From Methylophaga sp. 41_12_T18 (GTDB lineage: Bacteria > Pseudomonadota > Gammaproteobacteria > Nitrosococcales > Methylophagaceae): a stretch of DNA of 64,000 nt. This document shows positions 15,790 to 63,719 of the stretch, piece by piece; positions within the stretch are counted from its first letter, which is position 1; each line of letters opens with the position of its first letter. The notes under the pieces were generated by a model. The model ran no database searches, had not been told where the DNA came from, and saw only the letters and a list, made by a program, of their open reading frames with translations. The stretch covers positions 1-64,000 of the forward strand of contig MAAI01000087.1 in NCBI GenBank assembly GCA_002163115.1, in the 5' to 3' direction. Both the position numbers and the translations under genes were made by a program.

Positions 15790-15829
15790 TGAGATGGACG
15801 TTTGATTAAATAGTAAGTAGGAGTAGTTT

Positions 15830-17356: not shown

Positions 17357-17366
17357 GGATAGAAAT

Positions 17367-44083: not shown

Positions 44084-44098
44084 CAAAGGATGATAACA

Positions 44099-45838: not shown

Positions 45839-48139
45839 CTACTGTTCAAGTGTTATTGGTTGACGTTTGAAATTTAGGCTAGTTAGATCGTCTAAACTCG
45901 ACTCAAGTTGTGTTAACTGTTGTCTGACATGTTCATGCTCACCAGCAAGGTATTTGAACTTAAGTTCGCTAGCTAAGTGATGCATCGTTTGATGTGCTTG
46001 TTCTAAGGTATTTAGCTGGTGTTCAGCGAAGATGTTTTCTTGTCTGGTGCGGCTAAGCCAAGTGCCGCAATGGCATTTATTATGCTCCATAATTGGCCAA
46101 TACATATGTTCATGAGGTGCAGCATTAATATTGGTTTTAAAGTGTCTAAGCCATTGATTGGCACTTATTTTTAATAGTTTTAAATGACTACTTTCAGGGC
46201 TGTGATTGGTACTGCCATATAATAGCCATTCTTCATTTGCTTGATAATTTTTGAGCCAGTTAGGTATTTGTTCCGCTGGTAAAGGTCTAGATATACCATA
46301 GCCCTGTGCTTGTTCGTAGCCCATCAGCAATAGCATCAACCCATGTTCTGTGGTTTCAACACCTTCCGCTATAACTTCACGGTTGAAGGTGTTGGCAAGG
46401 CCGATCACGCCATCGACGATGGCATAGTCGCTAGGGTTATCCAGCATATGAATAACAAAGCTTCGGTCAACTTTAATCACTTTTGCTTTCAAATGACGAA
46501 GGTGGTTGAGTGATGAGTAGCCAGTACCGAAGTCATCCAGTGCAATGCTGATACCTAGTTTATTATGACAGTCGCTAATAATAGCTGTAATGGTAGCTAA
46601 ATTACTCAATGAACTGCTTTCTAAAATCTCTATTTGTAAATATTCAGAATCAACAGATGGTTGGCTAGCTAATGCTGACTCTAATTGTGCGAGAAATAAT
46701 GGGGACTGTAGGTGGTAGGAAGAAATATTAATGCTGATTTCTAGTGCCAGTCCCATTCTTTTCCAGCTAGAAAGTTGATTGATTGCCGTTTGAATAACCC
46801 AGTTACCGATATCAATTTCAATATCAGTGCCATCAATGATCGGGAGAAACTCTGACGGTGGAGTGAGGCCTTTTAATGGGTGTTGCCAACGAATTAATGC
46901 TTCGGCTCCAAAAACATGGCCTGTTTTCATATTAATTTTGGGCTGATAATAGAGACAAAACTCATTATTAATTAAGGCTTGTTGAATTTCTTGCAGTTGC
47001 AGATGTTTTTGCACCGCAAGTTGATCATCTTCAGTACTAAAAAATTGATAACGATTTCGGCCGGAAATCTTAGCTTTATACATTGCTTGGTCGGCATGGC
47101 GTAATAAGGTGTCTGGATCCGAATCATCAGATGGGTAGATAGTAACGCCACTAGATGCACTGATCGACAGTGATATATTTTCTATAATGTAGTTTTGGGC
47201 TAAAGTAGTATGAATTCTGGTTAAGAGCTGCTCACATTCATCTACAGAAGCTAAATTACCCAATAATATAACAAATTCATCACCACCTATGCGTGACACC
47301 GTATCATCTTCACGAATATTAGCCTTGATGCGTTCGGCAACTTCAATAAGTAACTTATCACCGATAATATGACCATATTTATCATTGATGGGTTTGAAAT
47401 GGTCTAAGTCTAAAAAGCATATTGCTAGTAATGATTTGATGTTTTTGCTATGTAGTACGGCCTGTTCAAATCGATTGGTAAAAAAACTGCGGTTAGGAAG
47501 TTTAGTAAGCTCGTCATAATGCGCCATAAATTCGAGCTTTTTTTGTTGCTCTTTATTTTGGGTGATATCGGAAACAAGACAAACATAATGGATACTGTCA
47601 GCATCATCGCTGACTAAGGTTGAAATTGTCAGGCGGACTACAAAAAGTTGGCCGCTTTTTTTACGGCTATATATTTCTCCTTTCCAGTGCTTTTTCTTAT
47701 TGAGAGATCGCCAAATATCAAGGTAGAACTTGGTTTTATCACTATTTGATATTAATAAGTCAATGCTTTTACCGATTAATTCACTACGTTCAAATTGGCT
47801 AAGTAGAGTAAAAGCCGGGTTTATATCGACAATAGTATTATTGATATCAACAATAATTATGCTCTCGTGGGCATCATTAAATACGCGAGTAGCAAGGTGT
47901 ATTTCTTTAGTTTCTGTACGATACTTTTCAAAAAATAAAGCGGTTAGAAAGACAATGACAACAGCAGTCAAACTAAGTGAAATAAGAGATGTGATGAGTA
48001 GTTGGCTGTTGGGCTGATCCGGCCAAAAATAGTACTGGCTGAAGAATAGCAAGCAGGCCACGCTGCTCATTAAAAAGCTGCAAGCGGATACAAAATGCCA
48101 GAACGGCATCTGTTTTACATAACAGCTGAGTTTTACCAT
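45839..48139 (-). CDS. PAS-GGDEF-EAL protein with C-terminal CZB zinc-binding domain
   Basis: 766 residues. Two membrane helices (about 15-35 and 47-70), a PAS domain (about 80-195), GGDEF domain with intact RIGGDEFVILL, EAL domain with GAEALIRW, DDFGTGYSSLNHL and EGVETTEH, all looking catalytically competent, then residues about 660-755 with the CZB pattern (HMYWPIMEHNKCHCGTWL with conserved His/Cys and Trp). CZB domains bind zinc in chemoreceptors and some diguanylate cyclases such as DgcZ and make activity zinc- or oxidant-sensitive. It therefore may make or degrade cyclic di-GMP in response to zinc. It converges with the kinase gene 15 bp away. Confidence 0.88.
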   Translation of the reverse strand: MVKLSCYVKQMPFWHFVSACSFLMSSVACLLFFSQYYFWPDQPNSQLLITSLISLSLTAVVIVFLTALFFEKYRTETKEIHLATRVFNDAHESIIIVDINNTIVDINPAFTLLSQFERSELIGKSIDLLISNSDKTKFYLDIWRSLNKKKHWKGEIYSRKKSGQLFVVRLTISTLVSDDADSIHYVCLVSDITQNKEQQKKLEFMAHYDELTKLPNRSFFTNRFEQAVLHSKNIKSLLAICFLDLDHFKPINDKYGHIIGDKLLIEVAERIKANIREDDTVSRIGGDEFVILLGNLASVDECEQLLTRIHTTLAQNYIIENISLSISASSGVTIYPSDDSDPDTLLRHADQAMYKAKISGRNRYQFFSTEDDQLAVQKHLQLQEIQQALINNEFCLYYQPKINMKTGHVFGAEALIRWQHPLKGLTPPSEFLPIIDGTDIEIDIGNWVIQTAINQLSSWKRMGLALEISINISSYHLQSPLFLAQLESALASQPSVDSEYLQIEILESSSLSNLATITAIISDCHNKLGISIALDDFGTGYSSLNHLRHLKAKVIKVDRSFVIHMLDNPSDYAIVDGVIGLANTFNREVIAEGVETTEHGLMLLLMGYEQAQGYGISRPLPAEQIPNWLKNYQANEEWLLYGSTNHSPESSHLKLLKISANQWLRHFKTNINAAPHEHMYWPIMEHNKCHCGTWLSRTRQENIFAEHQLNTLEQAHQTMHHLASELKFKYLAGEHEHVRQQLTQLESSLDDLTSLNFKRQPITLEQ

Positions 48140-48284
48140 ACTGCATCCTGCCTTAATAATAACAATTTACATGAGATGGTTTAGCTTTATAAAATTAGAT
48201 GAAAATAATAAGGTGTTTCGTTATGGATGTCTATTTATTTGATTTGAAAGATAAATTTAAATAATTAGTTAATGTTTATAGGAT

Positions 48285-50411
48285 TCAAGTAGCTTTCATT
48301 ATTTCCTCAACGGGTAAAGGTTTGCTGATACCGTAGCCTTGAGCGTGGTCAACACCTATAGCACTAAGTATGCTTTTAATGTCGGCATTTTCTACAAATT
48401 CAGCAATGGTATGCATACCCATCACTTGGCCTATTTCATTGATAGATTTGACCATGGCCCGGTCTATGGGATCGTGGACAATATTTTTGACAAACATGCC
48501 ATCAATTTTTAGGAAGTCGACCGGTAAGTTTTTTAAATAACCAAATGAAGATAAACCACTGCCAAAGTCATCAAGTGCAAACCGACAGCCTAGCTCTTTC
48601 ATTTTTGCAATAAACAAGGTTGCAGAGCTCAGGTTAGTTATCGCTGCTGTTTCAGTAATCTCAAAGCAGATTTTTTTGGGTGATATTGTTGTATGTTTAA
48701 ATTTTTCAACGATCAGTTCTTGAAAGTTCATATCGGTTAAAGACTGGCCTGATAAGTTGATGGAGCAAAAGTCGACGTGCTCAACAAACCGAGGATTTGT
48801 TTCTAACAATTCAAACGCGGTGGTCACTACCCATGAGTCTAATTTAGATATTAAATTATAGCGTTCTGCAGGCGGTAAAAAAGCACCTGGAGGAATGATT
48901 TCTCCTTTTTCATCAATCATCCTAATTAAAAATTCGTAATGCATTTTATGACTGTTATTTAGAGGCACGATTGCTTGTGCATAAAGACAGAAGCGGTTTT
49001 CAATAATCGCTTTATTGATACGCGTGACCCATTGCATTTCACCATGACGTTGTGCAATCTCAGCATCGCCTAGATCATGGACATGGACACGGTTACGGCC
49101 ATTATCTTTGGCTACATAACAGGCTGCATCAGCATGTTTTAATAGTTCACTCAGGTTGGGGCTATTTTTGGTTATAGCAACTAAGCCGATGCTAACCCCC
49201 AACTTAAAACTATAGTCTTGCCATGAAAATTGATAGTCCTGGATAGCTTTTAATATTGCCATTGATACGCGGTGTGCATCATCTAAGGAACAATGTTCCA
49301 TTAATACGCCAAACTCATCCCCCCCCAGGCGAGCTAAAGTATCTCGTTGTCTCACTGTGCTTTGCAGCAGGGCAGCAATTTGGCGGAGCATTTCATCACC
49401 TGCACTATGGCCACAGGTATCGTTAATAATTTTGAACTGATCTAAATCCATAAAACATAAAGCATGTACGCCGTCATCATCTGGTTTCAGGTTAGCAAGT
49501 AGTCGATCGGTTCGGCGTTCAAATTCATGACGATTTATTAAACCGGTTAATGCATCATGTGAAGCCTGAAAACTCAATTTTTCAGACAGTTCATATTCAT
49601 GACTAACGTCATCTTGAATGCAGATGAAATGAGTGATCGGACCTTCAGAGCTTTTAACACTAGAAATGGAATTACGAGCGCGGTAAAGGCTGCCATCTTT
49701 TTTCTTATTATTAAATTCACCTTTCCACTCTTTACCCGCTGAAATGGTGCGCCATAATTTTGTATAGGTAGCTGCTGGTGTTGCTGATGATTGTAAAAAA
49801 CGTGTTTTTTTACCTAACACTTCTGCTTGTTGGTAACCGGTCGTAGTTGAGAACTTCGGATTTACATATTCAATACGTCCCTTATTATCGGTGATAATGA
49901 CACTTGAAGAGCAGGCATCTACAGCACGAGATAGTTTTAATAGGTTGTCATTGCTGGTTTGTAACTGCCTATTTAATAAAGCGAGCTGATTAGACTTCTC
50001 AGCTAAACTAGCTTCAGTGTGTTTGCGTGCAGTGATATCTCTGACAATAGCGATAATATCGTTGCTACTTGGATGTGGTGTCAGCCTGGCTTCAAACTGT
50101 TTCACCTGCTTTGATATTTCTAGCGAATAATCAAAGCTAACCAGCTGCTTACTTTCTTTAACTAAGCTCAGGTTATAGGCAAACTTTTCAGCTGTGGCTG
50201 CCGGCAGAATGTCTTGCATTTTATTGCCCAGAAATGACTCAGGTGGAACGTAGAGTTCAGATGATGTTTTGCAGTGATAGTCTTTGATGGTGCCATCTAC
50301 AGACATTAAGAAAAAAATATCAGGTAATACTTGAAATACGGAGTCTAAGAGGGATTTACAGTCTGTATTTTCAATAGTGTCACTAATTAAAAAATTGGAA
50401 GAATCAGACAT
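48285..50411 (-). CDS. PAS-PAS-GGDEF-EAL cyclic di-GMP signalling protein
   Basis: 708 residues without membrane helix. PAS 1 about 20-130, a short coiled coil (about 135-165), PAS 2 about 165-280 with a PAC motif, GGDEF domain with ARLGGDEFGVLM, and EAL domain with DDFGSGLSSFGYL and AEFVEN. The name-giving EAL motif reads EFL (YEFLIRM), a substitution seen in many PAS-GGDEF-EAL proteins, so phosphodiesterase activity is likely but not assured. A run of eight C (49,319-49,326) encodes the two Gly of GGDEF. It lies upstream of, and divergent from, the polysaccharide synthase cluster. Confidence 0.88.
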   Translation of the reverse strand: MSDSSNFLISDTIENTDCKSLLDSVFQVLPDIFFLMSVDGTIKDYHCKTSSELYVPPESFLGNKMQDILPAATAEKFAYNLSLVKESKQLVSFDYSLEISKQVKQFEARLTPHPSSNDIIAIVRDITARKHTEASLAEKSNQLALLNRQLQTSNDNLLKLSRAVDACSSSVIITDNKGRIEYVNPKFSTTTGYQQAEVLGKKTRFLQSSATPAATYTKLWRTISAGKEWKGEFNNKKKDGSLYRARNSISSVKSSEGPITHFICIQDDVSHEYELSEKLSFQASHDALTGLINRHEFERRTDRLLANLKPDDDGVHALCFMDLDQFKIINDTCGHSAGDEMLRQIAALLQSTVRQRDTLARLGGDEFGVLMEHCSLDDAHRVSMAILKAIQDYQFSWQDYSFKLGVSIGLVAITKNSPNLSELLKHADAACYVAKDNGRNRVHVHDLGDAEIAQRHGEMQWVTRINKAIIENRFCLYAQAIVPLNNSHKMHYEFLIRMIDEKGEIIPPGAFLPPAERYNLISKLDSWVVTTAFELLETNPRFVEHVDFCSINLSGQSLTDMNFQELIVEKFKHTTISPKKICFEITETAAITNLSSATLFIAKMKELGCRFALDDFGSGLSSFGYLKNLPVDFLKIDGMFVKNIVHDPIDRAMVKSINEIGQVMGMHTIAEFVENADIKSILSAIGVDHAQGYGISKPLPVEEIMKAT

Positions 50412-50932: not shown

Positions 50933-52066
50933 ATGATGCTGACTTTTCTGAATATTATCGGAACTCGACCTGAAGCTATTAAAATGGCTCCGGTTATCCA
51001 TGCGCAGAGAGGTTTTTCAGACTCCATCCATCCCTTTGTTTGTTCGACTGGCCAACACCGCCAAATGCTTGATGATGCTTTTCAGTTTTTTGATATCAAG
51101 CCAGATTATGAACTTGCTGTGATGCAAGGTGATCAATCACTGTCGATACTAACTGCTAGCTTATTAGAATCACTAAATAAGGTGGTGATAGATGCAAAGC
51201 CAGATTGGATCCTTGCTCAAGGAGACACGACCTCGGTAATGACTTCAGCTCTGGTCGCGTTCTATCATAGAATTCCATTTGCTCATGTGGAAGCCGGGCT
51301 AAGAACTGGCAATATCTACTCGCCATTTCCAGAAGAAATGAATCGTATCATCGCTGATAAGGTTGCTGCATTGTTATTTGCACCGACTTCTCATGCGAAA
51401 CAACAACTGATTAACCGTGGCCTTAATGAAGAACGAATTTTCGTAACCGGCAATACCATCATCGATGCCTTGCATATGGTGACAAAAACTCCTTATTCAT
51501 GGGAACAAGGCCAACTTGCATCTATTCCACGTGATAAACGTATTGTACTGATAACTGCTCACCGTCGAGAATCATTTGGTGCTCAGATTGAACAGATACA
51601 CAATGCAGTACGAATTCTGGCTAATAGATTTGCAGCTGATGACATTCTATTTGTCTATCCGGTACATCTAAATCCGCGTGTTTATGAACCGGCAAATCGG
51701 ATTCTTGGTAAGACTGACAATGTGATGCTCTTGCCGCCGCTCGATTACCTGTCGCTGGTCAATCTAATGCAAGAGGCTGTATTAGTATTGACGGATTCTG
51801 GCGGTATTCAAGAAGAAGCTCCCACCTTTGGAAAACCAGTACTGGTTTTGCGTAATGACACTGAGCGTCCTGAAGGTGTAACTGCTGGTGTTTCCCGGCT
51901 AGTCGGCACTTCCACCGATGTTATTGTTGAAGCAGTGACTGAATTACTCACTAATCAGCAGGCATATGATGCCATGGCACAACCAAAAAACCCATATGGT
52001 GATGGCATGGCAGCACAACGAATTGTGCAGGCTATTCTTACTCATCGTGGTGAAGGAGCGTCATGA
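50933..52066 (+). CDS. wecB: UDP-N-acetylglucosamine 2-epimerase (non-hydrolysing)
   Basis: 377 residues, standard length. FLNIIGTRPEAIKMAPV, AQGDTTSVM, FAHVEAGLRTG and LTDSGGIQEEAP are the defining motifs. It interconverts UDP-GlcNAc and UDP-ManNAc in the cytoplasm. TAGGAC precedes ATG 50,933 (a second ATG follows directly). Its stop overlaps the GT2 synthase start by 4 bp, so it probably supplies the donor sugar UDP-ManNAc for the polymer made by that enzyme. No UDP-ManNAc dehydrogenase gene is near; the ugd gene at 24,981 is for UDP-glucose. Confidence 0.95.
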   Translation: MMLTFLNIIGTRPEAIKMAPVIHAQRGFSDSIHPFVCSTGQHRQMLDDAFQFFDIKPDYELAVMQGDQSLSILTASLLESLNKVVIDAKPDWILAQGDTTSVMTSALVAFYHRIPFAHVEAGLRTGNIYSPFPEEMNRIIADKVAALLFAPTSHAKQQLINRGLNEERIFVTGNTIIDALHMVTKTPYSWEQGQLASIPRDKRIVLITAHRRESFGAQIEQIHNAVRILANRFAADDILFVYPVHLNPRVYEPANRILGKTDNVMLLPPLDYLSLVNLMQEAVLVLTDSGGIQEEAPTFGKPVLVLRNDTERPEGVTAGVSRLVGTSTDVIVEAVTELLTNQQAYDAMAQPKNPYGDGMAAQRIVQAILTHRGEGAS

Positions 52067-53625
52067 GCTTGAGTGTTTTCTTAACGACCATAACGAATTG
52101 GTTGCTGATTAATTATCATGCAATTGCAGTGGCAGGCTGGACTGCTTGGCTGACGTTATTTTTGATCTTGTTTTTTACCATTGGAGTAGTGAGCTCGATC
52201 CGGGTATACCTCCATGCTCGCCATACCATTAGGCATCATATCGATGTGGCGAAACCGACTTTGAAAGAAGTGCAGAAACTAGCTGATAACAAGGGTGAAG
52301 AGCTTCCTTTTATTATAATTATGGTACCAGCAAAGGACGAGTCGAGGGTTATTGCCAATACCATCATCCGTCTTGCACAGATTGATTATCCAACTGAGCG
52401 TTATGCGGTGGCTATCATTACTGATGAACGCGAAAAAAGTGATAACGGTTCCTTGACAACCATAGAAATAGCTAGCGTTTGGGCCGATGATATTAATCGC
52501 GATCTAGCTGCCCCATGGCTCTATGTGATTAATGTGCCAGAGTGGTTTAGCGGCAAGTTTGGCTGCACTGAAAAAACATTCAGTCGTTCTACAAAGGGCC
52601 GGGCTCTTAATTATGCACTGCATTATTTGCACGATGATTGCCGGCTATCACAGGCTGATATGTTGGGAGTTTTAGATGCAGACGGTCGTATACATACCGA
52701 AGTATTACGTGAGGTCGCCTTCAAACGCATAAATAATCGAGCCCAAGTGCTGCAGGGGCCAGTGTTTCAGATATCTAATTACTGGGATGTTACTTTGTCA
52801 GCTAAAGCTGCTGGTATCGAACTATCCATTTATCACCTTTCGTCGCTTGCCCGTCGTCTGCTGAGTAAAAAAATGACCGCTGAATTTCTGGCGGGTACTA
52901 ACTATTTCATTGACTTGCATACGATGATAGATTTGGGCGGCTGGAATGAACAAGCACTTGTGGAAGATGCAGAACTTGGCTTAAGGCTATTTCTCGAAAA
53001 AAATATTAAACCAGAATGGCTCTCCTGTTATGAGATTGAACAGACACCGCCTGATTATCATGTGTATCTGAAACAGCGACAACGTTGGTCACTAGGGCAC
53101 TTTCAGTTGCTGCCAATGATTCGAAATTCAGGACTGCCTATCAGTGGCAAAATCGCATTGTATTGGCGGGTAATGTCGGCGATCTTCAAAAGCCCAGTTG
53201 ATATTGGGCTTCCTGTGTTGGGCTGGATCGCGTTATTGTCCGGCTGGCATCAAGGACTAACGGAGTGGATCAGTTGGGTCATGCTTAGCCTGCTGATATT
53301 TTCATTGTTTGTTTGGGATTTTTTTGGTCGTGGCTACCATATGATCAAAAAATATGCGCCTGGCAAGCAGCGAAACTGGCTTCAGAATCGATTTCATCAG
53401 TTGCACTTTATTATCGCTATGCCATGGTTGATTTTTCTACAGGCCCAGCCACGTTTTGTAGCTATATTTCAGTATCTGACCGGCTTTGACAATGATAGTT
53501 GGGTTAAGACAAAGCGGACAGTTGAAGAGCCGTTGGAGGTCATCCCGAAGTTAGGTGCTAGGAAAGTTGAGATCGACAAGCTAATTGTTGCTGAGCATGA
53601 AAACGTTCATGAAGAAAGATTGTGA
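52063..53625 (+). CDS. Processive GT2 polysaccharide synthase, membrane-bound
   Basis: 520 residues. One or two N-terminal helices (about 20-50), a GT-A domain with IIMVPAKDESRV, VLDADGRI (DxD), EDAELGLRL (TED position) and QRQRWSLGH (QxxRW), then three or four C-terminal helices (about 365-470). The D, DxD, ED, QxxRW set marks processive inverting synthases such as cellulose, hyaluronan and PNAG synthases, which extrude the chain through their own membrane channel. It overlaps wecB and the next gene by 4 bp each. The product is probably a HexNAc polymer; no PilZ domain is fused, so any cyclic di-GMP control would need another protein. Confidence 0.9.
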   Translation: MSLSVFLTTITNWLLINYHAIAVAGWTAWLTLFLILFFTIGVVSSIRVYLHARHTIRHHIDVAKPTLKEVQKLADNKGEELPFIIIMVPAKDESRVIANTIIRLAQIDYPTERYAVAIITDEREKSDNGSLTTIEIASVWADDINRDLAAPWLYVINVPEWFSGKFGCTEKTFSRSTKGRALNYALHYLHDDCRLSQADMLGVLDADGRIHTEVLREVAFKRINNRAQVLQGPVFQISNYWDVTLSAKAAGIELSIYHLSSLARRLLSKKMTAEFLAGTNYFIDLHTMIDLGGWNEQALVEDAELGLRLFLEKNIKPEWLSCYEIEQTPPDYHVYLKQRQRWSLGHFQLLPMIRNSGLPISGKIALYWRVMSAIFKSPVDIGLPVLGWIALLSGWHQGLTEWISWVMLSLLIFSLFVWDFFGRGYHMIKKYAPGKQRNWLQNRFHQLHFIIAMPWLIFLQAQPRFVAIFQYLTGFDNDSWVKTKRTVEEPLEVIPKLGARKVEIDKLIVAEHENVHEERL

Positions 53626-55913
53626 TGATCTCAAAATTTAGCCAAGCCGGCCATCATTACCAGCTCCTAATTGGTTTGTTACTAATAGTGTGCATGCCTT
53701 TATGTGTTAATGCCGAGCTCATTAATCTAGCTGAAAAACGCAGTTATTCTTTACTGATTCAACCCAGTGATCCTTACCCGGATACGGGTAAGTTGCTGAC
53801 TGATGGGCGGCAGGGAACAGAGCCGTTAGAGTGTGGTGAAAAGATGTGCGCACCAGGTTGGGTTGGGTTTGATCATGGTCAGCCTGTTGTCATGCTCGAT
53901 CTCGAAAATACTCATCAGATAGATAGTATTTCCATGTCTTTTCTTTCTTTGCCAAAAGCCGGTATCAATCCGCCATCAGAGGTTCAGTTAGAGAGTTCAT
54001 TTGATGGGCTGCAATGGACGCAACGCGGAAAACTCAATTTAGACAAAGGAAAAATGCAGTTTGAATTGAGCGATCTTGCATGGAGAACACGTTACCTACG
54101 GTTGACCATTGAACGTGAGCAATGGAGCTTCCTTGATGAGCTTCGTGTTATTGGCGACTCTAGTTTTGTCGATAACCAACATGAATTGCTTAAGCCAACC
54201 CTCGTTGTCACCAGCAATTTATCTGGTAATGATGAACGACAACTTAGACTGGCCAATATGCTTGATGGCATGGGGGTAACTTATGAGATTATTGACGTCG
54301 AACAACTTAACGATATTGAGTTCTTTAAATATCAATTATTGATTTTTGCTAGCTCATCGACAACATCACTAACGATATCATTGGCTCAAGAACAGAGTTT
54401 GGTTACAGCTATTAATGGCGGCACCAATGTATTGTGGGTTGGAGGGGGGATATGGGGTTCTTTCAAGAGTACGGTGCTAGCAGATATTTTTGGCATTCGT
54501 TATGTCAAACAAGGTTCTAATGAGGAAAACGGTGTGCATTATGCTGAATACCGTAACCTTATCGGCGACTTAGATCGCGTACCAGTAGAACATGAAACCA
54601 TGTGGGTAGTGGAAGCGGTGAAGGCTGAAGTCGATAGCTGGTATCTCGACAGTAATGGCAGACAGAAGAATATTCCTTTTATCACTCGTATGAGTGGAGA
54701 TGAAACTCGTGGGGCAGCTACCTATATCTCATTACCTTTGCTTGACCGTTGGAAAATAAGCGAAAGCTATTTTACCTATTCGCGAGCCGAAATTTTAGCA
54801 AGAGCGATTCGTTTATTGATGACTGATGGCCTAGTCGGCAAGCACTCCGCTGAAAATGCGAGTGATGCAACCTTGCTGCTCAGGCTTGAGGATTATACGC
54901 CGGCTGGTTTCTATATGCAGCATGACTCACGACTTTGGCTGGCACGTATGAACAAGCTACTAGCGTTGACAGATAAATACCAGATACCACTGAATATCGG
55001 TATTGTGCCGATTTATAATCATCCCTATCTCGATGAAAGCCATGATTGGGCAGAACAGAGCCCATCGATAATTAAGCTAAAAATTATGGCTCAAGCTGCA
55101 TTCGAGAAGGGAGGCAGTCTAATCGTCCATGGTTATGATCATCAAAATGGTGATTCAATAGATGATTTTAGCGGTGATGATTGGGAGACTTACGATGAAG
55201 ACTCTAAGCTGTTCTTATCTCTCCGGGACCAACAGATAATTACTGATGCTGCCTATGATGAAATCGAAAAACAGTGGCGGCTAAAGCCCGTTATCTGGGA
55301 GACACCACACTACATCAGTAATAGTGATACTTTCTTGGCTGCGCGTAAATCAGGATTCAAATATTTCACAGAATCTGATACAAAATTATTCCCTAATTGG
55401 AATGGCTACCTTAATCATGCCAATGGTCTGATGTTAAATATTCCAGAAACGGGGGCTTATTTCCAGAGTTCAGTAAATGAACTGAAAGAGAAAACACTGG
55501 TAAAGCAATTGCACATACTGCCACGTATCGTTCGCATGAATGCCCCGTTTCTGGTGTTCTATCACAATAACTCGGAAAGTATGTACGATGCGCTCAATAA
55601 TTTTCTGATCACGAGTACAGAGTTTGATTTGTGGAAGCCAAACCTTGAATCTTTTGCCAGATTCTGGGAAAAACGCAAAGCAGTCGAGATCAGTGCAACC
55701 ATCGATAAAAAAGCAAAACAATTGCATGCTGTGGTCAATAATGCTTTCGACAACTTTACGCTAGCAATACAGCTGCCTGCCGGCAGTTCACCGATAAGTG
55801 TCTTCATTGATGGCACCATAACAAAAGTTAAGCAACGACAACTAGCAGAAAACTGGCAACTCTATCCGGTATTAACTGGGGGCTCGCATGAGATTATTGT
55901 TTCGTACCAGTAA
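53622..55913 (+). CDS. Secreted discoidin-like plus DUF2334 deacetylase-like protein
   Basis: 763 residues. Signal peptide 1-31 (ends VNAE). Residues about 35-178 look like an F5/8 C (discoidin) sugar-binding domain (LLTDGRQGTEP, RYLRLTIE, FLDELRVIG). Residues about 190-400 are a flavodoxin/GATase-like region (VTSNLSGNDERQLRLANML, NVLWVGGG). Residues about 410-650 resemble DUF2334, a polysaccharide deacetylase-like family: LLRLEDYTPAGF and SLIVHGYDHQNG supply candidate Asp/His metal ligands. It probably acts in the periplasm on the nascent polymer, as PgaB or PelA do. Deacetylation is inference; the family is poorly characterised. Confidence 0.8.
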   Translation: MMISKFSQAGHHYQLLIGLLLIVCMPLCVNAELINLAEKRSYSLLIQPSDPYPDTGKLLTDGRQGTEPLECGEKMCAPGWVGFDHGQPVVMLDLENTHQIDSISMSFLSLPKAGINPPSEVQLESSFDGLQWTQRGKLNLDKGKMQFELSDLAWRTRYLRLTIEREQWSFLDELRVIGDSSFVDNQHELLKPTLVVTSNLSGNDERQLRLANMLDGMGVTYEIIDVEQLNDIEFFKYQLLIFASSSTTSLTISLAQEQSLVTAINGGTNVLWVGGGIWGSFKSTVLADIFGIRYVKQGSNEENGVHYAEYRNLIGDLDRVPVEHETMWVVEAVKAEVDSWYLDSNGRQKNIPFITRMSGDETRGAATYISLPLLDRWKISESYFTYSRAEILARAIRLLMTDGLVGKHSAENASDATLLLRLEDYTPAGFYMQHDSRLWLARMNKLLALTDKYQIPLNIGIVPIYNHPYLDESHDWAEQSPSIIKLKIMAQAAFEKGGSLIVHGYDHQNGDSIDDFSGDDWETYDEDSKLFLSLRDQQIITDAAYDEIEKQWRLKPVIWETPHYISNSDTFLAARKSGFKYFTESDTKLFPNWNGYLNHANGLMLNIPETGAYFQSSVNELKEKTLVKQLHILPRIVRMNAPFLVFYHNNSESMYDALNNFLITSTEFDLWKPNLESFARFWEKRKAVEISATIDKKAKQLHAVVNNAFDNFTLAIQLPAGSSPISVFIDGTITKVKQRQLAENWQLYPVLTGGSHEIIVSYQ

Positions 55914-56994
55914 TAACACTAGCTTTGATGAAGCTTCACTTGTCATTGTTATAGCATTATTTTTAGTGACGATGGTTAACGCATCAGAATTAATGGCTGA
56001 ACAGCAGGTCAGCGAAGAGCGAGTTGAGCAGTTTTTATATAGTGGTGATGCTTTTGATGTCAGCTTTCTTCAGCCAACAACGGCGCACAAAGCGTGGTCG
56101 GTCCAACAGTGGACTGAAGAGCTATCGCAGCTTAGACAGTTGGGAACGCGATCACTGATTATCCAGTGGTCGCAGTACGATAAGGTGATTTTCTTTGCCG
56201 AAGTAGGAGCAAGGGATAGCTTGTTGCATCGCGTTACTACAGCTGCAACAGAAGTTGGCCTTGATTTCTATATAGGTCTGCCTTTGAATAGTGACTGGCT
56301 GAGGCCTCAACATTTGGATGGCAAGATAGTTAAATCGGCACTTGAGCAGAGTGAGCAGGTTGCAGCAATCATTTATCAGCAGTTTGGGCAGCAGAAAGGT
56401 TTCCACGGTTGGTATATCCCTCAAGAATTGACGGATTCTTTTTATACAGATGACCAGCGTCAATTAATTTTGGACTTCTTTTCTAGTCTGACTAAGGTGC
56501 TGCATGAGCTGGATATGTTGAAACTGGTACTAGCTTCTGGTTATACTTCGCCGCAAAATAATCACTTAGTAAAATTTACAATGTGGTGGATACGAGTACT
56601 TGAAGACAGTGGTATAGATATTCTTATTTTCCAAGATGGTGCTGGCACAACGGATCAACAACAATGGCAGGTTATCGAACCCTATCTTGAAGCGATTTCA
56701 CTAATCGGTGATGAATATACCTCCAACAATATTTGGTTTGTTGCTGAAATATTCACCCAAATTGATGGGCCGAGTATTAATAACAAGCCTTTTCGTGCTG
56801 AACCAGCAAATTTTGAGAGGGTTTCACAACAACTAGACATGCTTGGCCATTTGGGTAAAAAACTGGTCAGCTTTTCATATTTTCCATACATGAGGCCTGC
56901 CAATGGTGTTGAGGAAAAACGCTTATATGAAAAATATAAAAAATTTGTCGAACAGCGTGCAAAATTTAACAGAAACTCAGTTGTAAATCGCTAA
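55888..56994 (+). CDS. DUF4434-like TIM-barrel glycosidase-like protein
   Basis: 368 residues. A hydrophobic N-terminal segment (about 15-38) is a signal peptide or anchor. Then DVSFLQPTTAHKAWSVQQWTEELSQL, FHGWYIPQEL (Glu), IDILIFQDGAGT and WFVAEIFTQ (Glu) form the pattern of DUF4434 proteins, which are predicted TIM-barrel hydrolases. It overlaps the preceding gene by 26 bp, with GGGGGC before the ATG. A hydrolase beside a deacetylase-like protein recalls PgaB and PelA, where both activities process the exported chain. Substrate and activity are inferred. Confidence 0.75.
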   Translation: MRLLFRTSNNTSFDEASLVIVIALFLVTMVNASELMAEQQVSEERVEQFLYSGDAFDVSFLQPTTAHKAWSVQQWTEELSQLRQLGTRSLIIQWSQYDKVIFFAEVGARDSLLHRVTTAATEVGLDFYIGLPLNSDWLRPQHLDGKIVKSALEQSEQVAAIIYQQFGQQKGFHGWYIPQELTDSFYTDDQRQLILDFFSSLTKVLHELDMLKLVLASGYTSPQNNHLVKFTMWWIRVLEDSGIDILIFQDGAGTTDQQQWQVIEPYLEAISLIGDEYTSNNIWFVAEIFTQIDGPSINNKPFRAEPANFERVSQQLDMLGHLGKKLVSFSYFPYMRPANGVEEKRLYEKYKKFVEQRAKFNRNSVVNR

Positions 56995-57042
56995 TAGCTA
57001 TATTGCGAAGTAGTTAACTTTAATCTGACTCAGGAAGCCGTT

Positions 57043-57732
57043 GTGTTAGAAAATGAACTAAAGTTTATCTTGAACAATGAACGGGCAGTGAATGTGCTTC
57101 GCTATATTGCTGCGGTATGTCGGCCGGACCCTGAGTTCCCGCATGGCGTTATAAATACCATCTATTATGATTCAGCACGTTTAAGCCACCTCGCAGAAAA
57201 AGCAAACAGCGATTTTCTGAAAACAAAGTTTCGTGTCCGTTGGTATGGTCATCCAGATGATGAAAGCTATCCTCCAGCAGAGTACTTCCTTGAGGTAAAG
57301 TCACGTATAGGTAGTAAGCGCACGAAACGTCGATGCAATATTGAACGTTCTGATTATCATATAGCTGAGTTTGCACTGGAAGATCCTTTCGTGTGTAAAG
57401 TCCCGCACCTTTTTAAGCAACAAGGCATTATTTTAGATGACCATTTGTTACCGGTGATAATGATTCGTTACGAAAGGTATAGGTTTATAGAGCCCTTATC
57501 GGGGGCCAGGATATCGTTGGATCAAGATATAACTGTCCCAAAATTTAATAGGCGAGTGTTACCGCAAGGTCGTGAAGTGACATTGCGCACGGCAGTTGTT
57601 GAAGTTAAGGGGGAAAGTACCACGCTACCTACTAGCTTACGTTGGCTGACAAATTTTGGCCTTCGTAAGGCTGCGTTTTCTAAATACCTAAGCTGCGTAG
57701 AAAAAAGCGCAGGGGTAGAAGTGAGGTTATGA
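57043..57732 (+). CDS. VTC-domain (polyphosphate polymerase-like) protein
   Basis: 229 residues from GTG 57,043 (AGGAAG 5 bp upstream). ENELKFIL, NTIYYDSARLSHL, KTKFRVRWYG, EYFLEVKSRIG, VIMIRYERYRF and VVEVKGES give the alternating Lys/Arg/Glu strands of the tunnel fold shared by VTC polyphosphate polymerases and CYTH phosphatases. It has no membrane helix and should be cytoplasmic. Bacterial VTC proteins are often next to DUF4956 and CotH proteins, as here; what they make or hydrolyse is not established. It overlaps the DUF4956 gene by 4 bp. Confidence 0.82.
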   Translation: MLENELKFILNNERAVNVLRYIAAVCRPDPEFPHGVINTIYYDSARLSHLAEKANSDFLKTKFRVRWYGHPDDESYPPAEYFLEVKSRIGSKRTKRRCNIERSDYHIAEFALEDPFVCKVPHLFKQQGIILDDHLLPVIMIRYERYRFIEPLSGARISLDQDITVPKFNRRVLPQGREVTLRTAVVEVKGESTTLPTSLRWLTNFGLRKAAFSKYLSCVEKSAGVEVRL

Positions 57733-58463
57733 TGGATGAGAATACTACGGTCTTGGATTTGCCGGTTGGAAAGCTCTTGGATCAGGTGAGTAACTTTGCC
57801 AACGTTGATCTGGCTGGAATAGGTTTCGGAACTTTTTTCAGCATGATGCTTATATCTCTTATTACCTCGTTGATAATGATGGTTCTATATCTGCAGTTTT
57901 ATGGCTCGCGTGCAACGGGAAGTCAGATTCATCGGTCATTCCCACTACTAGGCCTAGCCGTTACTTCTATATTTGTCTGCATACAGTTTTCGCTGCCACT
58001 TTCCCTTGGCCTGTTGGGTGCGCTATCCATAGTGCGTTTCAGAACTCCGATAAAAGAACCTGAAGAAATAGGGTTTATTATGGTGATAATTTCGAGTTCG
58101 ATTGCGATAGCAACGCTTAATTTAGGTTTTCTAGCCATCATGCAATTATTTTTTATATTGGCATTGTTAGTACTGGCCTTTGGGCCCAAATCGGTTAAGC
58201 GAGATATACAGGATGGCGTTATTTTTTTAACGGTACCGACCAGGGAACTTACCGACAAATCATCTGCCCTGTTTGAATTGCTAGAGCAGGATTTGATTAA
58301 CGGTAGGTTGGAAAGCATCACAAAATCTGATGTTAATTCGATTATTTCGTATAGCTTCAAGGAGCTCAATAATGACGCTGCAGCAAATCTTCAGGATAAG
58401 ATCAGTACATTACTTACCTTGAAAGACTGGAGTGTTTTTTTTAGTCAGCGCGTGTCTTTGTAA
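57729..58463 (+). CDS. DUF4956 membrane protein
   Basis: 244 residues with three or four helices (about 30-55, 70-95, 110-145) and a cytoplasmic C-terminal domain. SLGLLGALSIVRFRTPIKEPEE is the hallmark of DUF4956. Function unknown; commonly encoded beside VTC-domain and CotH proteins, so it may be their membrane partner. Its start overlaps the stop of the VTC gene. Confidence 0.85.
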   Translation: MMDENTTVLDLPVGKLLDQVSNFANVDLAGIGFGTFFSMMLISLITSLIMMVLYLQFYGSRATGSQIHRSFPLLGLAVTSIFVCIQFSLPLSLGLLGALSIVRFRTPIKEPEEIGFIMVIISSSIAIATLNLGFLAIMQLFFILALLVLAFGPKSVKRDIQDGVIFLTVPTRELTDKSSALFELLEQDLINGRLESITKSDVNSIISYSFKELNNDAAANLQDKISTLLTLKDWSVFFSQRVSL

Positions 58464-58549
58464 GAATTAACAAGCTAGATAGACGGTTGTATAACTGATG
58501 AGCGTTGTTTCACCTGACAAGATGAAGGTGTTGTATATGTATAAAGAAA

Positions 58550-59989
58550 ATGCATTTTAATTATCCATCAAGATTTCGTTTCATTTTATTGTTACTGGTT
58601 ATTCTTGGCCTCCTTGTTGGGATATTAATCTGGTCTGGATCCCACAAAAACAGTGATACGTTTTTACGTGACATTAAGAGTTTTAGGCTTTTGTCTGAAT
58701 TTAGTGAGCGAGGCGCCCGCTTTATTGGTAATAGTCCTGATAATTATTCCCAACTACTCGAGTCTCATTTCCCTAAGAAAGATAAATTGGATGTTGTAAG
58801 TCTCAGTGGCAACGTTGCTTCACTGACTATAAGCAACAGTAATCTTTATGGGGCAAGGCATGGACTATTATCTAACGCCACCAAGAAGGGACTTGCATGG
58901 GAGAGACCGGGTCTTTTTACTTTCTACCATGATGGTGAGCTAGTTTTTCAGTCTCGCGTAGGGGTACGCATTCATGGTGGCGAGTATTCACGACGAGTGG
59001 ACAGTGATAGTTTAGGATTTCGATTGTATTTCCGTCCTGGCTTTGGCTCAGACAATATTTCTGCAGCAAAAGTGTGGCCAGAAGTACCTGGCTCAATCTC
59101 TTCAATGGTAATGAAAATTTCTACCAATAATTTACGTAATGCAATGAATATGGAGATTAGCCGTCGTGCGGGTGCGATGGCCCCACATGTAGCTCCGGCC
59201 CAATTCTTTATGAATGGACAAGCTTGGCATCAAGATACCGTGTTATTGATGGAACATATCAGCCGAGATTTTTTGGACAAACATTATGGCCATAGTGACT
59301 TTGTTTTTCATCGATATAAAAATGATGATACAAAATATTCACCTGGACCATATCTAGACCTTCTTACACAGCTGAAAGATCGTCAAAGTCGACTCACATT
59401 CTCGGAACTAGCACAAGAAGTAGACGTTAATACTCTTTTTGCACAGTACGCCACAAATATGCTGGCGGAGATCTACGATAGTTTTCAGGGAGGAATACTG
59501 CTTGATAAACGAACTGTTAATGCGAAATGGACATTCGTGAGTTGGGATATGGAAGGTGGGTTCAGGAGCAGTTGGGGCTGCCAAATGACGGTTGACCAAT
59601 GTCCAGAAAATATGAAGGGATATTTTAAGCATCTTGGCAATAAATGGGGTCTCCTCAGAGAATCTATCTGGCAACGGTTCAGGAGTGATGATGAATTTAG
59701 GCGGGCATTTACACACTATTTGGCACAACTATTTAGACATCAAATTACAGATAAATGGATAACAGACCTCACAAAACACTACAGGAAAATAGCGCAGTCA
59801 AATGGGCTGGATTATGAAGGAAACCACAAATATGGACTTGCTTCTTTCAGCGCTAGCGAACAGTTTTTGATACAACAAAAACAGGAAATATTGGCACTGA
59901 TAAAAAGTGAATGGAAGATCGATATTGAGGCGATACCAAATGATGAGCTTATTGCAGAGCCTTATTTATCAAAACCTAATGTCGAGTAA
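58550..59989 (+). CDS. CotH-type protein kinase, membrane-anchored
   Basis: 479 residues. A signal anchor at about 8-28 places the rest in the periplasm. GVRIHGGEYSRR, LGFRLYFRPGFG, VLLMEHISRDFLDKHYG and WTFVSWDMEGGF are the blocks of the CotH kinase family, atypical kinases first known from Bacillus spore coat. Asp in WDMEGG is a candidate metal ligand. In this setting it could phosphorylate a protein or a sugar of the polymer. The start ATG 58,550 has only a weak ribosome-binding site. It lies 86 bp after the DUF4956 gene and ends the main operon. Confidence 0.85.
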   Translation: MHFNYPSRFRFILLLLVILGLLVGILIWSGSHKNSDTFLRDIKSFRLLSEFSERGARFIGNSPDNYSQLLESHFPKKDKLDVVSLSGNVASLTISNSNLYGARHGLLSNATKKGLAWERPGLFTFYHDGELVFQSRVGVRIHGGEYSRRVDSDSLGFRLYFRPGFGSDNISAAKVWPEVPGSISSMVMKISTNNLRNAMNMEISRRAGAMAPHVAPAQFFMNGQAWHQDTVLLMEHISRDFLDKHYGHSDFVFHRYKNDDTKYSPGPYLDLLTQLKDRQSRLTFSELAQEVDVNTLFAQYATNMLAEIYDSFQGGILLDKRTVNAKWTFVSWDMEGGFRSSWGCQMTVDQCPENMKGYFKHLGNKWGLLRESIWQRFRSDDEFRRAFTHYLAQLFRHQITDKWITDLTKHYRKIAQSNGLDYEGNHKYGLASFSASEQFLIQQKQEILALIKSEWKIDIEAIPNDELIAEPYLSKPNVE

Positions 59990-60307
59990 ATTAAAACAAT
60001 ACTTTGCTGCATAGCGGCGTAGTCACAAAAGTAAAAAACGCTCTAATTAAGCGAAACTTTTTGATAAGAATAATTAGCGATAAGGTTAATTACTGAAGAG
60101 TATCAACAGAAAATAGAAGCGACGTCCACGGGTTTCAGCATTCCTCCATACAAACTCCAAACTTTGACTAGGCTTAGATCTACGACCGATATTTAATCAA
60201 TAATTCCCTAGCGATCGAATTAGTACTGGCGAGGAAAATGATAATGACTATATAATGGATGAGATTCATTCTCTATCTAATTGATAATTATGGAAACTTA
60301 ATGGTTT
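59990..60307. other. Gene-free interval before AMIN/barrel gene
   Basis: 318 bp with no credible gene. TATAAT at 60,251-60,256 is a good -10 box, but the expected -35 position (about 60,228) is poor, so it may need an activator. No strong terminator hairpin is seen after the CotH gene. Confidence 0.4.
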
Positions 60308-62371
60308 ATGTTTTGTTGGCAGGTCTTAGCTAAAGTGAAGACTGTTTTAATTAGTGCGACCGGATTCAGAGGTATGGCTGTGATAATCCTCCAGCTACTA
60401 CTTTGGCCACAAATTGCACTAACGGCTAATATTCAGGGATTACGACATTCGACAGAAACGGGGTACACCCGTTTAGTTTTCGATATTGATCGGCCCACCG
60501 AATATAAGATTTTCACGCTGGATAATCCAGCACGGTTGGTATTGGATATTCATCAGTCCAAGATGGAGACTACCATCGACCTGTTGGCCTTGAAAAATCA
60601 GCAAATTAAAGGTCTAAGATACGCAGTTCGCGATGATGTAAACCTGAGAGTCGTGCTTGATTTGAAGCGCAAGGTTCGTTCAAACAGTTTTCTGCTGAAA
60701 CCTAACTCTAAATATGGCCACCGCCTTGTCTTGGACCTTTACGATATTGCAGAACTAAGCGATCGTTCGGCAGAGGAGCTAGAACATAATCAGCCTGTTG
60801 CCACAACCGAGGTTTCAACACAGGCTTCAACAGATACTTCAACAGCGACTTCAACAGAGACTTCAACAGAGACTTCAACAGAGACTTCAACAGAGACTTC
60901 AACAGAGACTTCAACAGAGACTTCAACAGCGGCTTCAACAGCGGCTTCAACAGCGGCTTCAACAGCGGCTTCAACAGCGGCTTCAACAGCGGCTTCAACA
61001 GAGGTATCAATTGCTCCCCCATCGCAAGTTGTACACAATCAAGACGATAATCGCCCTGAGGACCAATTACAAATAATCTTATTTGATCGACCATTAACTA
61101 TTGGTGGTGAATATTCATTTGTACCAACCTATCGTGAAGACTACGGCTTTGATAACCATCCAGACGATTCATTAACACTTGCCCAGTCTTTTCAACTCGA
61201 ATTTTTCTATCAAGCATCGCAAGACATGACATTGTTTGCTGAGGGGAAATTTAACTATAACTCTGACCTTTATCTAGAAGCCGGCAATGAACATAATGAA
61301 CCTGCGTTTGCCAGAGGTAAAACTTGGGTTCAATTTGATAATTTAGTTACAGATGGCTTTGGCCTGCGAGTAGGACGGCAGAATTTTAGTGATAAACGTG
61401 AATGGTGGTGGGCTGCAGACCTTGATGCCGTTCGCGCTTATTATGAAACACCCCATTTCCTTATTGAATATGCTGTGGCGGAAGAGCAAGGCAGAGTTTC
61501 TACAAAAGGGCCTGTTGACCCAGAAGAGGATAATATTAGGCGCCAGTTTGTTAGGGCGGAGTGGGAATGGCTAAGAAAGAACTATCTAGAATTTTTTGTA
61601 TTTGATCATCAAGATCACTCATCAACACCAAGGGAAAATATGATCATCTCCAGTGACAAGGAGGATGACGTAGATGCAGATTTAACCTGGTTGGGTGTGC
61701 GTGCGATGGGTCGGATCAAACACAAAAAACTGGGTAGGTTTAATTACTGGCTAGATACCGGCTATGTTCACGGCCAGGAAACCATCATAGATTTCGACGA
61801 TGTCGATGCAAAATCTATCTTGGTTGATACATCTGAAAAGTTTGATGTCAAAGGCTGGGGCTTCGATACCGGGATAACATGGCAAACAAGGCTGGTATGG
61901 ACTCCAAGCTTCACCCTGAGTTATGCACAAGGCTCAGGTGACAAGAATAAAAATGATAATGTTAACCGCAGTTATCAGCAGCCAGACATACACAATAACA
62001 ATAGCAAGTATCGTGGTGTGGATTCATTTAAGTACTATGGTGAAGTATTACGTCCGGAGTTATCCAATATAAAAATTGCCACAATGGCTATCGGCTTTCC
62101 GTTGTTTAACGATAGCTCGATCGAATTTTTGTACCATAATTACAGGCAAATGTATGCTGCAGATAGACTCAGGGGAGATCGGTTACAAATTAATCCTAAT
62201 GGGGAATCCACTGATATAGGGAATGAAGTTAATATTGTATTAGGTTTAGAAGAATGGAAGCATCTGGAACTAGAATTTGTTCTTGGTTTATTTAAGGCTG
62301 GAGATGCATTTGGTGACAATGCTGGCGATATTGCGAAAACGGCAATATCTAAACTTAATTATAATTTCTAA
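60308..62371 (+). CDS. AMIN domain-repeat linker-AlgE-like outer-membrane export barrel
   Basis: 687 residues. Signal peptide about 1-38 with basic residues before the core and cleavage near ALTAN. Residues about 39-145 are an AMIN domain (TGYTRLVFDIDRPTEYKIF, ARLVLDI, LRVVLDLK), which binds peptidoglycan in amidases and secretins. Residues 167-234 are a Thr/Ser-rich linker of 17 four-residue units. Residues about 260-687 resemble the alginate export (AlgE) barrel: QSFQLEFFYQAS, GLRVGRQNFSDKREWWW and a final LNYNF ending in Phe. It would be the outer-membrane exit of the polymer made by the upstream synthase. A second ATG at 60,374 would give a poorer signal peptide. Confidence 0.85.
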   Translation: MFCWQVLAKVKTVLISATGFRGMAVIILQLLLWPQIALTANIQGLRHSTETGYTRLVFDIDRPTEYKIFTLDNPARLVLDIHQSKMETTIDLLALKNQQIKGLRYAVRDDVNLRVVLDLKRKVRSNSFLLKPNSKYGHRLVLDLYDIAELSDRSAEELEHNQPVATTEVSTQASTDTSTATSTETSTETSTETSTETSTETSTETSTAASTAASTAASTAASTAASTAASTEVSIAPPSQVVHNQDDNRPEDQLQIILFDRPLTIGGEYSFVPTYREDYGFDNHPDDSLTLAQSFQLEFFYQASQDMTLFAEGKFNYNSDLYLEAGNEHNEPAFARGKTWVQFDNLVTDGFGLRVGRQNFSDKREWWWAADLDAVRAYYETPHFLIEYAVAEEQGRVSTKGPVDPEEDNIRRQFVRAEWEWLRKNYLEFFVFDHQDHSSTPRENMIISSDKEDDVDADLTWLGVRAMGRIKHKKLGRFNYWLDTGYVHGQETIIDFDDVDAKSILVDTSEKFDVKGWGFDTGITWQTRLVWTPSFTLSYAQGSGDKNKNDNVNRSYQQPDIHNNNSKYRGVDSFKYYGEVLRPELSNIKIATMAIGFPLFNDSSIEFLYHNYRQMYAADRLRGDRLQINPNGESTDIGNEVNIVLGLEEWKHLELEFVLGLFKAGDAFGDNAGDIAKTAISKLNYNF
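60806..61009 (+). repeat. Seventeen tandem 12-bp units encoding a Thr/Ser linker
   Basis: Units code for T-x-x-S: four varied copies, six of ACAGAGACTTCA (TETS), six of ACAGCGGCTTCA (TAAS) and one TEVS. The two homogeneous blocks point to recent unit expansion. Each unit keeps the frame, so linker length can vary. The same repeat creates long meaningless open frames on the other strand. Confidence 0.95.
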
Positions 62372-62840: not shown

Positions 62841-63719
62841 TTAATTACTGATGTCATTTTTGATTTCATCAATGTTTTGTTTCAATGATTCTAGTTCACT
62901 ATTTGCTAATTCTGGAGTAGACCAAAACTTTTGAAAAATAACGTGTTTTGTTAATTCTTCAGGAAGAGGATCATCACCAGCAAGGGATAACTGATGAGCC
63001 ATGAATACAATATCATCTAGGTTAATTGATTGTTGCGAGTCGCGGTCAAAGTCACAGTGCGACTTAGCAATATTGATAATATCCGGCGAAAAGTTCCAAC
63101 TTTCCATAACTAACTTTCCTGCACTTGGGTAAAGTTTAGGGATAACAACGTCAGCTACCAGCATTAATACTTTGGAATTGATATTTAATTCCGGTATTTT
63201 GTTTAGCCTAAGCAGTAGTGGCAATGTTCCTATATTGTGAACCATGCCTGCTAACAGTGCTTGTTCAGGATCGATATCAGTTGTTTTCTGTGCCAAGACA
63301 TAACTGATGGCCGCCACCGTATTACTTTGTTGCCAACTGTGTTCAAAAAATGATTCTAAGCCTCTAGTTTTAGACTGCATGAGGTTTTGAGCGATAGATA
63401 GGCCGATGATTAGGTTTTGAACTTTAGCTATCCCTAATCGAGCCACAGCAGCTTTGACGCTGGTGACATGGTAACGTTCACCAAATAAGGCGCAGTTAGC
63501 GACTTTGATGAGTCGGCCAGAAATATGAGCATCTTGTATTATTAATTCAGCAATATCGTCGGCAGTGGATTGTTCGTCATTGGCGATAGTACGCACTTTA
63601 ATTAGAATGTCGGGCGGGGAAGGCAGTTCTAGCTTATTACTTCTGATATCGTCCGTTAAGGTTGCTAACGCTGCGTTGACTTGTTGTGTCAGTGTCGACT
63701 TATTCATTTCAGAGCCCAT
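62841..63719 (-). CDS. HDOD domain protein
   Basis: 292 residues, cytoplasmic. LPSPPDILIKVRTIANDEQSTADDIAELI followed by DAHISGRLIKVANCALFG is the HDOD signature start, and HNIGTLPLLL and HQLSLAGDD mark later helices; the catalytic His-Asp pairs of true HD phosphohydrolases are lacking, as usual. HDOD proteins act as signalling adaptors, often in cyclic di-GMP or motility pathways. The start at 63,719 has AAGGA about 6 bp upstream on the - strand. tRNA-Thr lies 91 bp downstream on the same strand. Confidence 0.9.
   Translation of the reverse strand: MGSEMNKSTLTQQVNAALATLTDDIRSNKLELPSPPDILIKVRTIANDEQSTADDIAELIIQDAHISGRLIKVANCALFGERYHVTSVKAAVARLGIAKVQNLIIGLSIAQNLMQSKTRGLESFFEHSWQQSNTVAAISYVLAQKTTDIDPEQALLAGMVHNIGTLPLLLRLNKIPELNINSKVLMLVADVVIPKLYPSAGKLVMESWNFSPDIINIAKSHCDFDRDSQQSINLDDIVFMAHQLSLAGDDPLPEELTKHVIFQKFWSTPELANSELESLKQNIDEIKNDISN

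Follow-up and report, generated by a model that had tools for sequence, protein, structure and literature searches.

A VTC-DUF4956-CotH gene trio inside an exopolysaccharide operon of Methylophaga sp. 41_12_T18, a possible phosphate-modification module

The trio and its locus

This analysis concerns three adjacent genes, coding for a VTC-domain protein, a DUF4956 membrane protein and a CotH-family kinase, in a stretch of 64,000 nucleotides from Methylophaga sp. 41_12_T18 (GCA_002163115.1, contig MAAI01000087.1, positions 1-64,000, forward strand; hereafter the window). The trio sits at 57043-59989 inside a co-directional + strand run spanning 50933-62371, in which the gene order is UDP-N-acetylglucosamine (UDP-GlcNAc) 2-epimerase, family-2 glycosyltransferase (GT2) synthase, DUF2334, DUF4434, VTC, DUF4956, CotH and AMIN/AlgE-type porin. 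The VTC-domain protein (57043-57732, + strand, 229 amino acids, GTG start; PF09359, 1.9e-23) is of the triphosphate-tunnel, polyphosphate polymerase-like type. Its open reading frame overlaps by 4 bases that of the DUF4956 membrane protein (57729-58463, + strand, 244 amino acids; PF16316, 1.9e-10), which is followed by the CotH-family kinase (58550-59989, + strand, 479 amino acids; PF08757, 6.1e-17), a putative periplasmic protein with an N-terminal export/anchor helix. The original prediction had assigned these three families and set the trio inside a polysaccharide operon. The identities were confirmed by Pfam matches above curated cut-offs, and the setting by the genes of the co-directional run.

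Recurrence of the trio

Searching 84,980 species genomes with the window DUF4956 protein recovered 41 loci, distributed among Spirochaetes, Desulfobacterales/Desulfobulbaceae, Acidobacteria, Aminicenantes, Verrucomicrobia, Kiritimatiellae, Planctomycetes and others. Together with the window, VTC lay directly upstream of DUF4956 in all 42 loci, and CotH came after DUF4956 within a few kb in 37 of them, three of the five exceptions being contig ends. A plasmid search with the DUF4956 protein gave no match. Since the 41 loci had been selected by similarity to one member of the trio, an independent sample of 274 genomes from the window's class was also considered. VTC occurred in 8 of these genomes, DUF4956 in 11 and CotH in 20. 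In every VTC genome DUF4956 was present too, no more than 5.5 kb away on one contig (8/8, hypergeometric P 2e-13), and six of the eight carried CotH within 7.3 kb (P 2e-6); in the two others, G143 and G193, the contig is short or ends at this place. CotH was found without VTC in 14 of its 20 genomes. VTC and DUF4956 matches fell in the same 3 of 14 control genomes. Pairwise protein distances were correlated (VTC-DUF4956 r=0.92, VTC-CotH 0.87, DUF4956-CotH 0.80), to which shared species history contributes a part. Adjacency in 42 loci and in the unbiased class sample marks the trio as a genuine module whose proximity is not due to chance. That the three families often travel together, as first proposed, was borne out and is already published for Pel clusters (PMC7112168).

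The VTC-domain protein

The Pfam match of the window VTC covers 217 residues and scores 83.7 bits, compared with a curated cut-off of 23. It consists of the soluble VTC domain alone (Pfam); an SPX domain and a fused transmembrane segment are both absent from this 229-residue protein, which was for that reason filed as VTC-like and not as a VTC complex. The family profile found yeast VTC4 as its best match (1.5e-19), followed by VTC2 (1e-12) and VTC3 (7e-10), as against 0.31 for an inorganic triphosphatase. Judged from these profile scores, the family is closer to VTC4, the catalytic subunit, than to VTC2/3, the regulatory ones.

Conserved tunnel residues of the window protein are K7, R64, R66, E84, K86, Y143, R145, E187, S213 and K214. 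Tunnel residues of VTC4 include K200, K281, Y359, R361, R373, E426, S457, K458 and K455. Equivalents of VTC4 K200, R264, R266, K281, Y359, R361, R373, E426, S457 and K458 occur in the window protein and are kept in 33-35 of the 35 VTC proteins of the family (29/35 for R373); the equivalent of K455 is not conserved among these 35. Invariant R64 and R66 align with VTC4 R264 and R266, two residues that yeast requires to make polyphosphate (PMC8749416). The active-site Lys, Arg and Glu residues on which the original prediction depended are thus present, and invariant or nearly so. From its sequence, the protein is predicted to be a cytoplasmic, polyphosphate polymerase-like enzyme split from its membrane part.

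The DUF4956 membrane protein

The DUF4956 Pfam match falls on the membrane half of the protein (41.2 bits, cut-off 30.6). An AlphaFold2 model (pLDDT 86) displays N-terminal membrane helices, a loop and a C-terminal ferredoxin/ACT-like soluble domain. The loop reads RFRTPIKEPEE, and its R103, F104 and R105 were invariant in 43 sequences. For the soluble domain, the second-ranked Foldseek match was the MgtC C-terminal domain 2lqj, at a weak level (E 0.0098, prob 1.00, TMt 0.56), and the window protein did not match the MgtC Pfam family. The model suggests a membrane domain joined to a cytosolic ACT-like domain, a predicted plan resembling that of MgtC. In Streptococcus intermedius, where the trio genes are SIR_1592-1594 and their deletions were studied in 2025, DUF4956 was likewise read as MgtC plus ACT (PMC12345266). 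A VTC1-like channel was also considered and rejected, there being no PDB match for the membrane half and no match by sequence.

Several Desulfobulbaceae-type loci carry a second, very divergent DUF4956-like protein right after DUF4956 (L011:10703-11584, L012:10721-11542, L013:5654-6520, L017:1943-2806, L024:10662-11552 and L027:10691-11557). The two that were scanned, from L012 and L013, matched no Pfam family.

The CotH-family kinase

The CotH protein scored 62.5 bits in Pfam (cut-off 23.8), matched Bacillus cereus CotH 5jd9 at 4.5e-14 in a profile comparison, and superposed on 5jda in Foldseek (E 2e-10, TM 0.66). The catalytic aspartates of Bacillus CotH are D228 and D251 (PMC7821199). They align with D310 and D333 of the window protein, which are invariant in 26/26 CotHs and have the same 23-residue spacing as in B. 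cereus. A hydrophobic helix occupies residues 7-31, and a comparable N-terminal export/anchor helix was present in 25 of the 26 CotHs, the exception probably reflecting a mis-called start. CotH is therefore predicted to act outside the cytoplasm, in the periplasm. The three-compartment layout put forward at the outset fits these features, with a soluble VTC, a DUF4956 protein predicted in the membrane and a CotH preceded by a hydrophobic helix.

Side observations concern CotH at two further loci. In the genome G036 (L066, 5065-15615), four CotH genes flank the VTC-DUF4956 pair, at least one of them with Fn3-associated domains. In the trio locus L060, a divergent CotH is immediately followed by a Phytase-like (PF13449) protein (15236-17458), possibly a phosphate-ester enzyme.

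The polysaccharide operon and its relation to the trio

The first gene of the run codes for a non-hydrolysing UDP-GlcNAc 2-epimerase of the WecB type (50933-52066, +; Pfam Epimerase_2, 2e-112; TIGR00236, 448.6 bits, above cut-off), whose product would be the precursor UDP-N-acetylmannosamine. It is followed by a family-2 processive-type glycosyltransferase, the polymer synthase (52063-53625, +; PF13632, 7e-19), a DUF2334 protein that is probably a secreted polysaccharide deacetylase (53622-55913, +; PF10096, 9e-18, residues 418-651) and a DUF4434 protein, probably glycoside hydrolase-like (55888-56994, +; PF14488, 2e-44). Overlaps of 4 to 26 bases join these four genes. Beyond the trio lies a gene for an AMIN domain and an alginate-export (AlgE-type) outer-membrane porin with a Ser/Thr-rich repeat linker (60308-62371, +; PF11741, 1.7e-10; PF13372, 1.3e-34). 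The linker is encoded by a 12-bp tandem repeat present in 16.8 copies (60804-61004, +), coding for (T-E-T-S)n / (T-A-A-S)n, and a change in copy number would alter its length in frame. The 318 bp between CotH and the porin gene contained no promoter or terminator signal above shuffles, and the porin is likely a member of the operon. With a GT2 synthase, an outer-membrane porin and tailoring enzymes in one run, the locus has the make-up of a synthase-dependent exopolysaccharide operon.

No PilZ or GGDEF match, which would indicate a cyclic di-GMP (c-di-GMP) receptor, was found among the operon genes scanned. Two adjacent PAS-GGDEF-EAL genes (45839-50411) lie divergently upstream of the operon. 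Such c-di-GMP genes are usual companions of synthase-type exopolysaccharide systems, and this pair likely provides c-di-GMP control of the operon. A protein with an HDOD domain (62841-63719, - strand) is encoded at the operon end, and one protein (44090-45823), encoded beside a NarK-type transporter, fuses a PP2C phosphatase to a Ser/Thr protein kinase.

The relation between the trio and polysaccharide genes was quantified in 27 trio genomes, whose roughly 121 Mb contain 547 occurrences of the GT2 family PF00535. In the flanks up to 5 kb from the trio (27 loci, 242.5 kb, 167 proteins), this family matched 13 of the 167 proteins vs 1.1 expected from its genome-wide density in these genomes, about 12-fold above background. 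The co-occurrence with GT2 synthases that the original prediction had proposed as its own check is thus above chance. A GT2 lay within 5 kb at 8/27 loci (P about 8e-6; the GT2 P values are optimistic, the loci being partly related to each other), and a GT2 or GT4 at 11/27. The link is real, although it is not universal. At some loci other polymer-modification neighbours were recorded, such as GDSL hydrolases and sulfatases, and at L007 genes for MBOAT and AlgX stand directly upstream of VTC. PelG (PF16933) was absent from the window's genome, which was accordingly rejected as a Pel producer, and from 24 of the 28 trio genomes in all. With PelG in just 4/28, the trio extends beyond Pel.

None of the 34 genomes sampled from the window's own genus and family contained DUF4956. 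The DUF2334 protein had no relative in these 34 genomes and one partial 27% match elsewhere in the order, while distant partial relatives were all that was found for the GT2 synthase in 349 genomes of the phylum. The operon composition (0.40-0.44) is slightly higher than that of the rest of the window (0.35-0.43). Together, the scarcity of GT2, DUF2334 and DUF4956 relatives and the slightly raised composition are consistent with, without proving, acquisition of the whole operon.

The polyphosphate kinases PPK1 and PPK2 were not detected in the window's genome (95% complete). Of the 22 other members of the family, 21 have an intact PPK1 and one retains a remnant of it. VTC was also found without PPK1 in G036, from the same order. 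Over 38 relatives, the two VTC carriers had no PPK1 and 29 of the 36 others had a match (P=0.05). VTC may be the sole polyphosphate polymerase of the window's genome. This association was not used as proof that VTC replaces PPK, since control genomes carry both.

Possible function and alternatives

Starting from the gene identities, the conserved catalytic residues, the exported CotH, the predicted DUF4956 plan, the co-inheritance of the three genes and their link to polysaccharide genes, we infer the activities, any translocation by DUF4956, and the donor and substrate of the kinase. The catalytic residues that are kept suggest that VTC and CotH are both probably active. With VTC inside and CotH outside, whatever joins them must cross the membrane, and the module offers no candidate for this other than DUF4956. 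We tentatively propose, as the most economical reading, that the trio serves the exopolysaccharide synthase operon as an accessory module for phosphate modification, in which polyphosphate would be made inside, handled by DUF4956 and used outside by CotH. VTC would polymerise phosphate from ATP in its basic tunnel, giving polyphosphate or a short oligophosphate. DUF4956 would represent the membrane half of what eukaryotic VTC complexes carry as one protein; with its basic loop and ACT-like domain on the cytosolic side, it could hold VTC at the inner membrane, and it could pass or gate the product across. The exported CotH, in a compartment devoid of ATP, might then draw on this product or a derived carrier as donor to phosphorylate either the polymer on its way out or a secretion protein, thereby tuning polymer amount or stickiness. 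The wider version, in which polyphosphate from a split VTC system would carry energy across the inner membrane to an extracytoplasmic CotH that phosphorylates secreted polysaccharide or porin, independently of ATP and across many phyla, appears unlikely. The original prediction is supported in part. Neither of the two outcomes named as refuting it was observed, and the phosphate chemistry that it placed on an exported polymer or its secretion proteins is a putative role.

Several points weigh against the proposed module. The literature yielded no measured activity for a bacterial VTC of this group. In PDB comparisons, the DUF4956 model matched no known channel, its soluble domain alone giving a weak match (E about 0.01). 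About 60% of the trio loci have no glycosyltransferase within 5 kb, and a gap in the assembly could account for the missing PPK1. The S. intermedius deletions, which render partly outdated the earlier statement that these families have no known function, raise the strongest objection from the literature. Loss of CotH or DUF4956 caused an aggregation defect whereas none was reported for loss of the VTC gene (SIR_1593), and the CotH and DUF4956 deletions shifted Pel levels in opposite directions (PMC12345266). A simple linear pathway predicts equal deletion phenotypes, and these were unequal. The objection might lapse if another PPK were at work, or if the modification changed the antibody signal.

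The opposite effects on Pel would fit an alternative in which VTC and DUF4956 form a cytosolic sensor or regulator of polyphosphate or phosphate, CotH working independently in the envelope with another donor and all three being clustered as tuners of polymer output. The MgtC-like plan of DUF4956, on which the S. intermedius authors concur (PMC12345266), points the same way, as do the 14 of 20 CotH genomes of the class sample without VTC. This alternative appears about as likely as the proposed module. Against it, CotH tracks VTC distances (r=0.87) and adjoins the pair in 37/42 loci, which argues for a shared task, and it leaves the donor of an exported kinase unexplained. Polyphosphate might instead be the exported product, made by VTC, exported by DUF4956 and forming a matrix part or a cross-linker of a cationic deacetylated polymer, with CotH as an anchor. 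The intact VTC tunnel and the lack of a detected PPK agree with this, and the probable DUF2334 deacetylase would give a positive, polyanion-binding polymer. Yet DUF4956 matches no known channel and the CotH catalytic residues, which a pure anchor would not need, are strictly kept, so that we consider this unlikely.

The remaining alternatives concern the two enzymes separately. Triphosphate tunnel metalloenzymes share their tunnel, and hydrolases are hard to separate from polymerases by sequence. VTC could thus be a tripolyphosphatase or NTPase, the trio scavenging or recycling phosphate with an incidental link to polysaccharides. The lack of conservation at K455 and the absence of glycosyltransferases from more than half of the trio loci would suit such an enzyme. 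The preference of the profile for VTC4 (1.5e-19 vs 0.31 for inorganic triphosphatase) and the GT2 enrichment of about 12-fold make it quite unlikely. As for CotH, its target could be the repeat linker in the neighbouring AMIN-AlgE porin, by analogy with the CotH of B. subtilis, which phosphorylates the Ser-rich repeats of CotB/CotG, Ser-rich repeats being the known CotH substrates (PMC7821199). The linker is encoded by the next gene, would reside in the same compartment, and at 70% Ser/Thr over 40 residues is the most Ser/Thr-rich segment among 364 flank proteins. However, no comparable Ser/Thr-rich neighbour was found at any other trio locus, genes near and far being alike in this respect, and the repeat is acidic instead of Lys/Arg-rich; such a role is improbable.

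Where an exported kinase would find a phosphate donor outside the cytoplasm is not obvious, and the proposed phosphate-modification module makes this donor question directly testable. For DUF4956 and bacterial VTC, no tested biochemical function was found in the literature. With intact catalytic residues, an occurrence in many phyla and a tie to polymer export, the trio turns ATP-free phosphorylation of a secreted polymer into a testable idea.

Comparison with known systems

Accessory genes of the cotH-PPP-DUF4956-DUF4832 type are known in streptococcal, clostridial and bifidobacterial pel clusters (PMC7112168). Like the window, these Gram-positive clusters display the three families side by side in a synthase-type polysaccharide operon with a deacetylase. 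They possess a PelF GT4 and PelG, whereas the window has a GT2 synthase, a WecB-type epimerase, DUF4434 and an AlgE-type outer-membrane porin. The S. intermedius study of 2025 reported no trio outside Pel (PMC12345266). Contrary to that inference, the trio is not a Pel-specific accessory. A related combination is that of the Clostridium perfringens locus NELoc-2, also Gram-positive, where by description a VTC/polyphosphate polymerase, CotH, a glycosyltransferase and a polysaccharide deacetylase occur together (PMC11677781). The Zetaproteobacterial stalk cluster sfz (PMC8250860), which has CotH and for which VTC and DUF4956 are unmentioned, was rejected as the same system.

At the protein level, the eukaryotic VTC complex (VTC4/VTC1/VTC2-3) shares with the window a homologous tunnel domain with its catalytic residues and a membrane partner. 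It differs by its SPX domain and fused membrane helices, in place of which the window has a separate gene for an MgtC/ACT-like membrane protein with no detected VTC1 similarity. The Bacillus spore-coat kinase (5jd9/5jda) has the same fold as the window CotH and catalytic aspartates with identical spacing, despite very low identity. It acts in the spore-forming mother cell, while the window CotH would be exported via its N-terminal helix. Finally, alginate-, poly-N-acetylglucosamine (PNAG)- and cellulose-type synthase systems resemble the window by their GT2 synthase, deacetylase, hydrolase, outer-membrane porin and neighbouring c-di-GMP genes. Unlike them, the window has no CelA or PgaC orthologue (matches below curated cut-offs) and carries the phosphate trio. 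The novelty lies in a non-Pel operon of a Gram-negative bacterium that combines the trio with a GT2 synthase and an AlgE-type porin, in the wide spread of the trio outside Pel, in residue-level evidence suggesting active enzymes and in a quantified association with glycosyltransferases.

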